Part shown: piece by piece, positions 7,145 through 20,545 of the stretch
Numbering within the stretch: the stretch's first letter is position 1
How the letters are laid out: each line of letters opens with the position of its first letter
DNA from: an uncultured Bacilli bacterium
Lineage (GTDB): Bacteria; Bacillota_I; Bacilli_A; RF39; UBA660
DNA: 39,149 nucleotides
Direction of reading: 5' to 3'
Assembly (NCBI GenBank): GCA_944363935.1
Contig: CALVVT010000027.1
Span: 1 to 39,149 of the forward strand
Made by a program: the position numbers and the translations under genes
The notes under the pieces: generated by a model
Database searches by the model: none
What the model was told of the DNA's origin: nothing
What the model saw: only the letters and a program-made list of their open reading frames with translations

Positions 7145-7162
7145 AGTATCACCTACACATAA

Positions 7163-7242
7163 TAAAAGGTACACACATTTAGTGGCTTTTAAGGCTGCTG
7201 TTTTCCAACTCTGACCTGGTTCAAGCATAAATGTTGTACCGC
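7163..7242 (-). ncRNA. ffs: signal recognition particle RNA, small bacterial type
   Basis: About 80 nt folding as one hairpin. The apex has the conserved SRP helix 8: CCAGGTCAG on the 5' side, a GGAA tetraloop closed by GTT/AAC, then AGCAGCC on the 3' side, close to the E. coli 4.5S pattern. The outer stem pairs GGTAC with GTACC and ACATTTA with TAAATGT. A T run follows (ACCTTTTATT). It binds Ffh to target membrane proteins. Its place between tadA and dnaX matches Bacillus scr, but it has no Alu domain. A strong promoter lies just upstream. Confidence 0.9.
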
Positions 7243-7246
7243 TATA

Positions 7247-7275
7247 AATATATACTAAAAAGCAGTTAAAAGCAA
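7247..7275 (-). promoter_or_regulatory. SRP RNA promoter
   Basis: Minus-strand TTGCTT (7275-7270) and TATATT (7252-7247) are separated by 17 bases. Transcription is predicted to begin at 7240-7242, exactly where the SRP RNA stem starts. Confidence 0.75.
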
Positions 7276-16945: not shown

Positions 16946-17028
16946 TGTGGAAAAAGTGGAAAACTAGGAAAATTGTTTATTTTAAAGGCTAAAATGGTTA
17001 AAAGTTTTCCTTTTTTTCTTGTGGATAA
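16946..17028. promoter_or_regulatory. DnaA boxes in the dnaA-dnaN gap
   Basis: A perfect box, TGTGGATAA (17020-17028), and a one-mismatch box, TGTGGAAAA (16946-16954), lie in a very AT-rich gap. With the cluster at 20.2-20.4 kb they would make a two-part origin like Bacillus oriC, where boxes lie on both sides of dnaA. I find no clear DnaA-trio run. Confidence 0.6.
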
Positions 17029-17042
17029 TTATAAGTTTTCCC

Positions 17043-18377
17043 CTACTTTATTTGATTGATTATTTTTGAAATTTCGATTTCTAAATTTTTATCTTTTTTA
17101 AGTTCGTCTTTTATTTTATTAACCGAATGCATTACAGTAGTATGGTCTTTGCCTCCAAAAGCACTACCAATTTTGGGTAATGATTCTTTTAAATGATAGC
17201 GGCAAATGTACATAGCTATTTGTCTTGGTACGGCAATTTTTTTTAATCTTTTTTTACTTATTATATCTTCAGGGGTTATATTATAGTTATTAGCTACTAA
17301 AGCAATGACTTGTTCGATTTTATTTTTAGTTAATACGGCTTTACCAATATAATCTTTTAAAGCTTCAATAGCGAGTTCAATAGTTATTTCCGAACCATTC
17401 ATGATGGTGGCATAAGCAAAAACTCTAGTTAAGGCCCCTTCTAGCTTTCTTATATCGGTTGTACAATTACTAGCGATATATTCTTTAACTTCATTTGGAA
17501 CCATATTACTAATTCCTTGAGCTTCGACTTTTTTATCTAATATCGCCATTCGAAGGTTAAAATCAGGGGGTAAAATATCGATAGTTAAACCCCAATTAAA
17601 TCTAGTCCGCAGTCTTTCTTCTAGTTTTTTTAAATCGTCAGGCGATCTATCTGAAGAAATAATAATTTGTTTATTATTAGTATGTAGTTCATTAAAGGTG
17701 TTGAAAAATTCTTGTTGGGTTTTACTAGCAATTTCTAAATACTGGATATCGTCAATCATTAAGACATCGATATTTCGATATTTATTTTTAAAGTTTTCCA
17801 CAGCTTTAAAATTACTATTCTCCCCTTTGCGGTAAATATTTAGAAAATCGTCGACAAACTTTTCACTAGTAACGTATAGGACTTTTTTATTGGATGTTGA
17901 AGTAATATAATTCCCTATCGCATGCATTAAATGGGTTTTCCCCAGTCCACTATTACCATAGATAAATAAAGGATTATACATACTACCTGGTTTTTCGGCC
18001 ACAGCTACCCCTATTGCTTTAGCGAATTTATTACTTTCACCAGATATAAAATTTTCAAAAGTATATTTTGTATCAAGTCCGCTTTCAAATATAGCTTCGT
18101 TATTTTCTGTATTAATTACCGGTTCTCTATTTTCTTCTTCAGTTACATATTCGAAGTTAAATATTGAACCACTAACTTCCATAAAAGTTTCTTTGATTAA
18201 ATCGTTATAGTTTTCTTTTAAATGTTTTTTATGCACATCAAGTGGTACTTCGACAACGGCATAATCGTCAGTTAGTTTAATTAATTTTGTGTCTTGAAAC
18301 CAAGTTTGAAACAAAACGGGTTTGACTTTTAATTTTACCTTTTCGAGAAAGGCTTTCCAAATATTATTATATTCCAT
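17043..18377 (-). CDS. dnaA: chromosomal replication initiator DnaA
   Basis: A 444-aa initiator. Domain I begins MEYNNIWKAFLEKV. The AAA+ domain has Walker A GNSGLGKTHLMHA, Walker B VLMIDDIQYLE and ERLRTRFNWGL. Domain IV has the DNA-binding signature FGGKDHTTVMHSVNKI. ATG 18377 is preferred because GGGGG lies five bases before it; ATG 18383 is too close. The native upstream region is interrupted: an insertion sequence begins only 23 bases before the start, so the gene's promoter now lies 1.8 kb away. A one-mismatch DnaA box occurs inside at 17794-17802. Confidence 0.97.
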   Translation of the reverse strand: MEYNNIWKAFLEKVKLKVKPVLFQTWFQDTKLIKLTDDYAVVEVPLDVHKKHLKENYNDLIKETFMEVSGSIFNFEYVTEEENREPVINTENNEAIFESGLDTKYTFENFISGESNKFAKAIGVAVAEKPGSMYNPLFIYGNSGLGKTHLMHAIGNYITSTSNKKVLYVTSEKFVDDFLNIYRKGENSNFKAVENFKNKYRNIDVLMIDDIQYLEIASKTQQEFFNTFNELHTNNKQIIISSDRSPDDLKKLEERLRTRFNWGLTIDILPPDFNLRMAILDKKVEAQGISNMVPNEVKEYIASNCTTDIRKLEGALTRVFAYATIMNGSEITIELAIEALKDYIGKAVLTKNKIEQVIALVANNYNITPEDIISKKRLKKIAVPRQIAMYICRYHLKESLPKIGSAFGGKDHTTVMHSVNKIKDELKKDKNLEIEISKIINQIK

Positions 18378-18391
18378 AAACATCCCCCATT

Positions 18392-18399
18392 AATATAGA
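18392..18399. repeat. target site duplication, left copy (AATATAGA)
   Basis: AATATAGA directly abuts the left end of the insertion sequence and is repeated at 20186-20193 directly after the right end. It lies between the dnaA ribosome binding site and the IS. Confidence 0.8.
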
Positions 18400-18586
18400 G
18401 GTAGTGTGAATAGTTTATTACACTACCCATGCTTTTCTCTTTATATTTAAAGGCTTTTTCTAACATTTTACTAATGACTCCCTTTTTGAAGTGATTTTTT
18501 TTTTTTTAAATTTTCTTTTTACTCTATCAAAAAATGACAAATATCTCTATAATAATTTTAGAACATATAGAAACGAGGTATCTGTC

Positions 18587-20017
18587 ATGTCTAAAATTAT
18601 ATCAGTTTTTATTGGATTTTTAAATAGAATTAATAAAATTATTTGGAAATTTATCATTTTCTTATCTAAATTTATCAAAGTCGACGATGTTGTTATTAAT
18701 AATAAGCCTACTAATGAACGTTATAAACAATTTAAAGTTGACGAATCCCCTTTAATTGAACCTTTTATTAAAATAGAACATAAAGATTATAAAAAACTTA
18801 TTAAAGAAAATAATATCCAGCCTATTAAGCGCCGTGGTAAATCTAAAATTCCAGATAACGTCAAATGTCCTTGTTGCGATGCGCCTAAAGATTATCTCTA
18901 TGATAATACTGGTAAACAAACTCAATTTGAATGTAAAGTTTGTCGCCATATATTTTCAAATAATCCTCATAAACAGAAAGATGTTCTTTTAAAATGTCCT
19001 CACTGTGAACATCAGCTTACTTTAAGAAAGCAAAGAGCTGATTATGATGTTTATGTCTGTAAAAATAATAAATGTAGATACTATTTAAATAATTTGGCTA
19101 CTTTAACTTTATCTAATAAGAAAAAGTTTGAAGAAAATCCTACATTATTTAAACTTCATTACATATACCGTAAATTTCATATCTCCTTACCTGCCATAAC
19201 TAAAGACTATCGTGATTTTATCAAACAACCTGTTGACCTTTCTAAAATTCATTCTTCTGATTATGTTTTAGGTCTATGCCTAACTTATCATGTTAATTAT
19301 GGCCTTTCTTATAGACAAACTGCTTCCATTTTAAAAGATATTCATGAAGTCTATATTTCTTATAAAACTGTTGAAAATTACTGTAAATCTGTTTCTCCTA
19401 CTATTCAGGCCTTACTTGAGTTTTATCCTTATGAACTTTCTGACACTATTGCTGCCGATGAAACTTATATCAAGATATTAGGTAAAACAGCTTATATTTT
19501 TTTCTACTTTGATGCCATTAAGAAAATTGTTACTTCATATAGAGTTTTTGATAAAAGAGATTCCTTATCTTCTATCAAAGCTGCTTATTCTACTTTATCT
19601 AAATATGATAAACTTCCTGATAGTTTAAAAGTAATTTCTGATGGTAATCCTATTTATAATGTTGCCGTTCAGTATTGGTGCCAAAATGGGTTACCATTTA
19701 AATTACATCAGGTTATTGGGCTTACAAATCTTGACGAAACTTCCAAAGAATACCGCTCTCAAAAGCAAATTATTGAAAGATTTAATAGAACCTTAAAGTA
19801 TTATTACAAACCAAAAGGTGGTTTTTCGTCTTTAGATAATGCCAATAATTATATGGTTTTATTTGCTACTTACAACAATTTTTTAAGGCCTAATAAAGCT
19901 TTAAATTATAAAACTCCAGTAGAACTTGAAAAACTAGAAAATATTTCTAATATGCCAAATAAGTGGATTGAACTAATTAGGCTTGCTTGTAAGTTCGCTG
20001 CACCATATTCTGAATAA
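18587..20017 (+). CDS. DDE transposase with N-terminal zinc ribbons
   Basis: A 476-aa transposase. ATG 18587 is chosen for GAGG eight bases upstream; the frame stays open further upstream but reads poly-T. The N-terminal third has a basic, hydrophobic start, then paired zinc ribbons (CPCC...CKVC and CPHC...CKNNKC). The catalytic core resembles the IS6/IS240-type DDE domain: D291 in AADETYIKILGK, D352 in VISDGNPIYN and E397 in IIERFNRTLKYYYKPKGGF, spacing 60 and 44. IS6 enzymes are about half this length, so the family placement is tentative. All catalytic residues are intact, so it may be active. Confidence 0.88.
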   Translation: MSKIISVFIGFLNRINKIIWKFIIFLSKFIKVDDVVINNKPTNERYKQFKVDESPLIEPFIKIEHKDYKKLIKENNIQPIKRRGKSKIPDNVKCPCCDAPKDYLYDNTGKQTQFECKVCRHIFSNNPHKQKDVLLKCPHCEHQLTLRKQRADYDVYVCKNNKCRYYLNNLATLTLSNKKKFEENPTLFKLHYIYRKFHISLPAITKDYRDFIKQPVDLSKIHSSDYVLGLCLTYHVNYGLSYRQTASILKDIHEVYISYKTVENYCKSVSPTIQALLEFYPYELSDTIAADETYIKILGKTAYIFFYFDAIKKIVTSYRVFDKRDSLSSIKAAYSTLSKYDKLPDSLKVISDGNPIYNVAVQYWCQNGLPFKLHQVIGLTNLDETSKEYRSQKQIIERFNRTLKYYYKPKGGFSSLDNANNYMVLFATYNNFLRPNKALNYKTPVELEKLENISNMPNKWIELIRLACKFAAPYSE

Positions 20018-20100
20018 TTTTTAAAAAATTACCTTAAATACTTGTTTTCAGCATGCCTTTTTTTATTAATTCTATTGTCATAGATCATTTTTTTATATTT

Positions 20101-20122
20101 TCTTGATAGATTTATATCAAGA
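20101..20122 (+). terminator. probable transposase terminator
   Basis: TCTTGATA (20101-20108) pairs perfectly with TATCAAGA (20115-20122) around a 6-base loop and is followed by TTTT. It lies within the right part of the IS. Confidence 0.5.
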
Positions 20123-20185
20123 TTTTCGTCTTAATATCTTTTTCTTTTTGTATGTCTAGTTTTCCATAAAACTTTTCACACTATC

Positions 20186-20193
20186 AATATAGA
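20186..20193. repeat. target site duplication, right copy (AATATAGA)
   Basis: Directly follows the right inverted repeat of the insertion sequence and equals 18392-18399. Confidence 0.8.
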
Positions 20194-20206: not shown

Positions 20207-20235
20207 ATTGTACCCTATTTTTTGGGTTTTGGCTA
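20207..20235 (-). promoter_or_regulatory. probable native dnaA promoter, displaced by the IS
   Basis: Minus-strand TAGCCA (20235-20230) and TACAAT (20212-20207), spacing 17. Removing the IS and one target copy puts this promoter about 35 bases upstream of the dnaA ATG, a normal leader. As the sequence stands the whole IS lies between promoter and gene. Confidence 0.5.
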
Positions 20236-20545
20236 GAAAAAACTGTGGAAAAGTAAAAAAAAAATTATCCACAGGCAAAAAATGTCGATTTTTGGTACTT
20301 TTTTAGAGTTTTCCACGATATTTGTGGATAAATAATTTATCCACTTTTGTTATTTAAAGTAAGTTATACACATATGTTTAAAAGTAGTTTTTTGATTATA
20401 AAATAAACGTTTTTTGGTGGTGGATAAGTATGTGTAAATAAGTGTTAGAACATAATTTCGTGTTGAAAAATAAGGGAAAATTTAAATGTAAAAAATACAG
20501 AAATTTATTTTTTAGAAATAATATTTGACAAAATGGCTTTTTATC
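20215..20545. promoter_or_regulatory. oriC: oriC, DnaA-box cluster and AT-rich region
   Basis: The region between the IS and rpmH holds seven boxes at zero or one mismatch: TGTGGAAAA (20244), TTATCCACA (20265, perfect), TTTTCCACG (20309, two mismatches), TGTGGATAA (20323, perfect), TTATCCACT (20337), TTATACACA (20364, fits TTATNCACA) and GGTGGATAA (20419). Very AT-rich sequence follows (20440-20545), a possible unwinding site. It lies where gene direction flips and next to rpmH, the usual place of oriC in Bacilli. Confidence 0.85.

Follow-up and report, generated by a model that had tools for sequence, protein, structure and literature searches.

The window analyzed here, i.e. the whole 39,149-nucleotide stretch of DNA from an uncultured Bacilli bacterium, has the gene order dnaN-dnaA-[IS]-DnaA boxes-rpmH-rnpA, with an insertion sequence (IS) immediately in front of dnaA. 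This raises the question of why an IS is found at this position, and from where dnaA would then be transcribed. According to the original prediction, a clean insertion had parted dnaA from its promoter and from oriC, leaving the gene to be expressed from within the IS or from an unseen promoter.

The insertion before dnaA and its empty site

The features relevant to the locus are the following, those on the minus strand reading in the direction of dnaA.

16946-17028, minus strand: DnaA boxes downstream of dnaA, between dnaA and dnaN
17043-18377, minus strand: dnaA coding sequence (TIGR00362, 505 bits), likely start ATG 18377-18375 by comparison with the starts of relatives
18384-18388, minus strand: dnaA Shine-Dalgarno (SD) sequence GGGGG, between the IS and the gene, conserved in relatives
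18392-18399: left target-site duplication AATATAGA, 8 bp, from the sequence
18400-20185, plus strand: IS, 1786 bp, boundaries backed by homologs
18400-18427: left terminal repeat and an inverted copy of it, together a hairpin, of a kind also seen in many homologs
18535-18587, plus strand: inverted repeat (18535-18547 and 18575-18587) overlapping the transposase promoter and SD, conserved in close homologs
18587-20017, plus strand: transposase, 476 aa, with an N-terminal helix, two CxxC zinc ribbons and a DDE domain of the IS6/IS240 type
18596-18624, minus strand: predicted outward promoter P_out, TTTAAA-17-TGaTATAAT, reading toward dnaA
20169-20185, plus strand: right terminal inverted repeat, from the sequence and homologs
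20186-20193: right target-site duplication AATATAGA, 8 bp, from the sequence
20207-20235, minus strand: native dnaA promoter as judged from conservation, TAGCCA-17-TACAAT, now 1.8 kb upstream of dnaA
20244-20427: upstream DnaA-box cluster, with boxes at 20244, 20265, 20323, 20337, 20364 and 20419

The dnaA gene itself is normal and full-length by the TIGR00362 profile. Its start is probably the ATG at 18377-18375, 6 nt 3' of the GGGGG, since relatives start at the equivalent position; the insertion does lie just upstream of the dnaA start, as had been proposed, only that start is probably not the in-frame upstream ATG at 18383. The left tip of the IS is found exactly 22 nt from the ATG, with the SD in between, and as the transposase is encoded on the plus strand and dnaA on the minus strand, it is this left tip that faces the gene.

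DNA from genomes of the same genus, covering dnaA and its upstream region, was collected and aligned (28 relatives and the window with its flanks joined). Joining the flanks in silico gives ...GGGTACAATGTTATCAGAGATT-TCTATATT-AATGGGGG..., and the closest relative (G020, DnaA 95% identical), which lacks the IS and reads ...GGGTACAATGTTATCAGAGATTTCTTATATTAGCGGGGG..., can be aligned across the joined flanks, differing only slightly. The comparison with IS-free relatives that had been suggested as a check therefore shows the flanks joining as foreseen, and a clean insertion is borne out by the terminal repeats, by AATATAGA on both sides and by the empty site in the same-genus genomes. The restored leader also has the anticipated promoter: a -10 element of the form TA[ACT]AAT occurs at the same place in 29 of 29 aligned sequences, as TACAAT at 20207-20212 in the window and as TAAAAT in most relatives. 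Because the -10 is kept across these relatives, 20207-20235 is identified from the alignment as the native dnaA promoter, in front of an uninterrupted leader in G020. Just upstream of the -10, a TTCCACAG motif within a DnaA-box-like TTTTCCACA is present in 22 of the 29 sequences. Judged by these elements, the IS has landed between the native promoter and the SD, not far downstream (a few bases) of where transcription is expected to begin.

The claimed separation of dnaA from its promoter and from the upstream box cluster thus stands, but with regard to oriC it needs qualification. As DnaA boxes are also found downstream of dnaA (16946-17028), the IS lies between two clusters, whose interval grows from about 1.4 kb to 3.2 kb, and does not simply split the gene from oriC.

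The host assembly is a draft of 1.27 Mb in 95 contigs. At full length the IS is single-copy in this genome, which makes a misassembly driven by repeats at dnaA unlikely; one other copy, internally deleted and 94% identical, is found on a separate contig (L041). Truncated IS copies are also present in relatives.

The element and its relatives

The transposase matches the DDE domain profile PF13610 with 31.4 bits (cut-off 27), while its match to NF033587 (E=1.7e-20) stays under the curated cut-off. Eight cysteines (94, 97, 116, 119, 137, 140, 158 and 163) are invariant in 18 homologs, in which the DDE residues are conserved as well. The ends of the IS are G[GA]TAGTGTGAA terminal repeats with GG at the left tip. 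By its architecture, length and duplication, the IS is a long zinc-finger IS6-like element matching clade VIII of Harmer & Hall (2019, PMC6807381), which in the available text of Varani (2021, PMC7986276) is clade i. The clade VIII elements, with ISHahy6, ISHco2 and ISTet2 among the members named in the available text of PMC6807381, share with the window IS a transposase of about 450-480 aa with an extra N-terminal part, a zinc finger and a DDE domain, a length of 1.7-1.8 kb and 8-bp duplications; the window IS likewise has 1786 bp, an 8-bp duplication and a GG left tip. It differs in its host, a Bacilli bacterium, whereas the members given in the available text of the two papers come from Clostridia-type hosts. 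The authors of PMC6807381 state there that they found no experimental data on clade VIII elements, and the clade VIII passages of the two papers describe neither a target preference nor an outward promoter.

The IS26 group, i.e. the IS6 family proper, is distinct: IS26, IS257 and IS1216 have a related DDE domain, an 8-bp duplication and GG tips in common with the window IS, but their transposases are only about 230 aa and without a zinc finger, as against 476 aa with zinc ribbons. In these elements, promoter parts near the ends can drive neighboring genes. ISBst12 was considered as a family and rejected, as it is listed as a subgroup of IS66 (PMC8024623), whereas the window transposase is IS6-like. 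AlphaFold, supplied with the alignment of 18 sequences, modeled the transposase poorly (pLDDT 47). Nothing useful came of comparing its profile with solved structures, and no phage homologs of the element were found.

Distance to the start codon in related elements

In the relatives of the element, a host ATG is found at a near-constant distance from the left tip, in front of different genes, with the element always facing the gene the same way and with an SD between tip and ATG. The window's own group (transposases about 65-100% identical) comprises 26 distinct tips, 17 of which have the ATG at 22 nt, three at 23 and two at 24 or 25; of the remaining four, one has a TTG at 24, another an ATG at 20, and two have no start codon. 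L041, the other copy from the genome of the window, has its ATG at 22 too. Among distant relatives (transposases about 36-46% identical), 60 of the 63 distinct sites have an ATG at 22-25. Individual genomes are more uniform still: 21 out of 22 copies in G1063 have an ATG at exactly 23, as do 7 out of 7 in G096, and the main subtype in G984 has it at 24 in 5 out of 5. These start codons were mostly called from open reading frames in the analysis and not from annotation, and the rule was formed on Bacilli and afterwards tested on Clostridia. It also holds for plasmid copies from Geobacillus stearothermophilus, Pediococcus damnosus and Levilactobacillus brevis; where the facing start is annotated, three out of four plasmid copies do so (at 23, 24 and 23), the exception being pHTA426 with a TTG annotated at 18. 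Perfect 8-bp duplications were seen at 40 sites of relatives. A second empty site was obtained as well, the G1063 insertion before rapZ being missing in the sister genome G1200, with continuous joined flanks and the ATG and SD in place. The rule is broken at sites L053, L066, L193, L253 and L266.

The most trivial reading of the locus would be chance, i.e. a random insertion into AT-rich intergenic DNA that was tolerated before dnaA, the pattern at other genes reflecting the usual intergenic excess of IS elements. Such elements do survive better between genes, and the duplication is AT-rich. Selection against insertions within genes would enrich intergenic sites, but it cannot explain an exact, lineage-specific distance and a single orientation, which are found in about 90% of the sites, in many genomes and at different genes. 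For random positions in G1063, the rate of finding an ATG at exactly 23 that opens 30 or more codons is 0.0045; of the 22 IS sites in that genome, 19 have one (binomial p near 1e-41). Chance is accordingly an extremely improbable explanation. On the evidence of these sequences, the insertion at dnaA is instead typical of a widespread IS family that targets start codons, with nothing about it peculiar to dnaA or oriC.

The distance could also follow from short 5' leaders if the IS were to target promoters or transcription start sites, e.g. open complexes, as the position a few bases after the expected dnaA transcription start might suggest. This we hold to be very unlikely, since upstream coding sequence reaches the duplication at several sites: at L238, L251 (after an upstream gene), L254 and L258 in G1063 an upstream reading frame runs up to it, and L253 lies within coding sequence. 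Furthermore, leader lengths vary while the position of the ATG does not. Site L253 had also been taken as an antisense site within a gene, and thereby as an argument for DNA recognition; this argument was rejected, as the site is in the sense orientation within a coding sequence for a permease-like protein.

What is found at the sites is more than a start codon. The target consensus is RGGRGG-N7-ATGRAA, and the 22 G1063 sites are purine-rich at positions 10-15 with G dominant at 11-15, followed by the ATG at 23-25 in 21 of them and RAAA at 26-29. The SD-to-ATG register is tight (sd 0.65 at the G1063 IS sites vs 3.1 in host genes, where the modal class makes up 24%), and the second codon is biased: it begins with two purines in 21 of 21 sites vs 63% of host genes, and is AAA in 12 of 21 vs 18%. 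As the register is tight, the ATG fixed and the second codon biased, SD and ATGRAA both appear to be read. If the SD alone were recognized, the ATG would be fixed merely through SD spacing, and the exceptions L053, L066 and L253, where the purine tract is in place but the ATG expected from the ruler is missing, fit such a reading. Nevertheless, it is quite unlikely given that the spacing in host genes is so variable while the ATG is invariant in 21 of 22 sites, and given the second-codon bias.

Matches to the composite motif fall at the starts of open reading frames in 80-100% of cases. The motif being mostly at gene starts anyway, reading of the sequence by the transposase would suffice, and the target would most simply be such a composite of purine-rich SD and ATGRAA read on DNA. 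The same motif, including the AAA second codon, is that of a strong translation-initiation region, which could speak for targeting through the translation machinery, i.e. through the mRNA, or through a 30S subunit engaged in initiation close to the gene. We find this unlikely, for DNA reading is enough, L253 sits inside coding sequence with no start codon at the ruler position, and we know of no route from a position in mRNA to one in DNA. A ribosome-guided transposon, whose transposase would locate ribosomes at initiation, or their mRNA, at genes under active expression and insert a fixed distance behind the start codon, is correspondingly doubtful.

The rule also holds outside clade VIII. 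In relatives from the sister clade VII (about 340-370 aa, with the zinc finger and without the further N-terminal extension), 10 out of 12 distinct elements keep it, at 23-25 nt, while none of five ordinary IS6 elements without zinc finger does, a small control. As clade VII obeys and these five do not, the specificity goes with the zinc-finger branch, and not with the additional N-terminal domain found in clade VIII, which is a correlation only. Clade VII includes the ISCbo1/ISCpe7-type elements, which resemble the window IS in being zinc-finger IS6-like but lack the extra N-terminal domain. In the available text of Skarin et al. (2011, PMC3098183), ISCbo1 is described as mostly "directly upstream a gene", a position in common with the window IS, with 8-9-bp non-conserved repeats; a distance, orientation, SD or start-codon rule is not reported in that text. 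A literature search among freely available journal papers returned no report of a fixed distance, orientation, start-codon or SD anchor, or outward promoter.

We would hence describe the zinc-finger IS6-like elements as inserting in one orientation, 22-25 bp upstream of start codons, at a distance fixed per lineage. Such an insertion spares the SD and coding sequence and severs the gene from its promoter or riboswitch. This would be an IS class that in effect targets start codons, with precision and in a set orientation, the promoter being swapped while the protein and ribosome-binding site are spared, and it would explain why an IS is present before dnaA, proS or guaB. Targeted transposons whose site choice spares coding sequence are known in Tn7 (attTn7) and yeast Ty1/Tf1. 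The present family is like them in this respect, but differs in that it is anchored, with base-pair precision, to translation starts, and this at many different genes. The ruler would point at the true start, and could consequently aid in correcting start-codon annotation.

Expression of dnaA and other target genes

The original prediction had found no strong outward promoter, which the present analysis does not support. P_out (18624-18596, TTTAAA-17-TGATATAAT) is a sigma-A-like predicted promoter directed toward dnaA, located within the initial codons of the transposase reading frame. Any one promoter prediction in A+T-rich DNA is weak. Divergent clade VIII relatives have equivalents in the corresponding position, as TTTAAA-17-TGATATAAT or TTGAT/AT-18-TATAAT, and in 19 of 20 divergent representatives the score is the best in its own gene. 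Shuffling the codons while keeping the amino acids lowers the score, so that the sequence is kept beyond what codon choice leads one to expect; the combined p (Fisher) of about 1e-15 assumes independence although the sequences are related, and is to be read as indicative. The left end of clade VIII elements carries a conserved promoter-like sequence pointing outward from the tip. Part of the TATAAT conservation may be explained by an inverted repeat that links this segment to the transposase's own promoter. The inverted repeat at 18535-18587 could hide the transposase SD in read-through transcripts.

A similar arrangement is known from IS10/Tn10, where the outward promoter pOUT lies near the transposase start, antisense RNA-OUT is complementary to the transposase leader, and read-through transcripts can form a stem that conceals the region of the transposase start. 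The window IS is alike in having an outward-pointing promoter near the transposase start, whose RNA would likewise be complementary to the transposase leader, and an SD-hiding stem, both predicted here from sequence, but IS10/Tn10 has an unrelated transposase and a different target choice.

Most likely, dnaA is transcribed from the predicted P_out with a leader of about 210 nt. The hairpin of the IS left end (18400-18427) would then be in the new leader just 5' of the dnaA SD, as foreseen. As a terminator for dnaA this hairpin was rejected, there being no T's after it in the dnaA direction. Of the two sources first envisaged for dnaA expression, a promoter within the IS now has a candidate in P_out; in place of an unseen promoter there is the native one, which is intact and allows for read-through. 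In 44 genomes from the genus of the window no Rho exceeded the curated cut-off, the matches being weak, partial and far below it, and no intrinsic terminator was detected inside the IS on the dnaA strand, so that dnaA mRNA might in addition arise by read-through from the native promoter. Expression solely by read-through across the 1.8-kb IS is conceivable on these grounds, though set against a conserved, better-scoring predicted outward promoter about 210 nt from dnaA we judge it somewhat unlikely. Altogether, we consider it likely that the zinc-finger IS6-like branch (clades VIII and VII) inserts in an oriented manner at a fixed distance before start codons and that dnaA is run most likely by P_out, possibly supplemented by transcripts reading through from the native promoter.

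Further target genes are proS, guaB, rapZ and rpiB, and an IS in front of them would be easiest to understand if P_out drives them. A purine riboswitch (Rfam RF00167, L239 3224-3321) is found ahead of guaB in G984, with the IS between riboswitch and gene. In G1063, a T-box-like leader (GGTGGTACCGCG, not called by Rfam; L256) precedes proS, again with the IS in between. Since the IS sits between regulatory leader and gene, it should uncouple guaB and proS in these two genomes from their riboswitches. Insertions of this kind would be a natural route to genome-wide rewiring of promoters and riboswitches and predict IS-driven expression changes in many Bacillota, and the transposase might serve to place promoters before genes.

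Lastly, two minor observations were made. A bacterial small SRP RNA (Rfam RF00169, 60.5 bits) is encoded on the minus strand of the window at 7154-7250. One homologous transposase (L045 794-2218), from an uncultured Bacilli metagenome-assembled genome, contains TGA twice in frame, once in place of the invariant Trp20 and once where the family consensus has Trp, and its host may read TGA as tryptophan.
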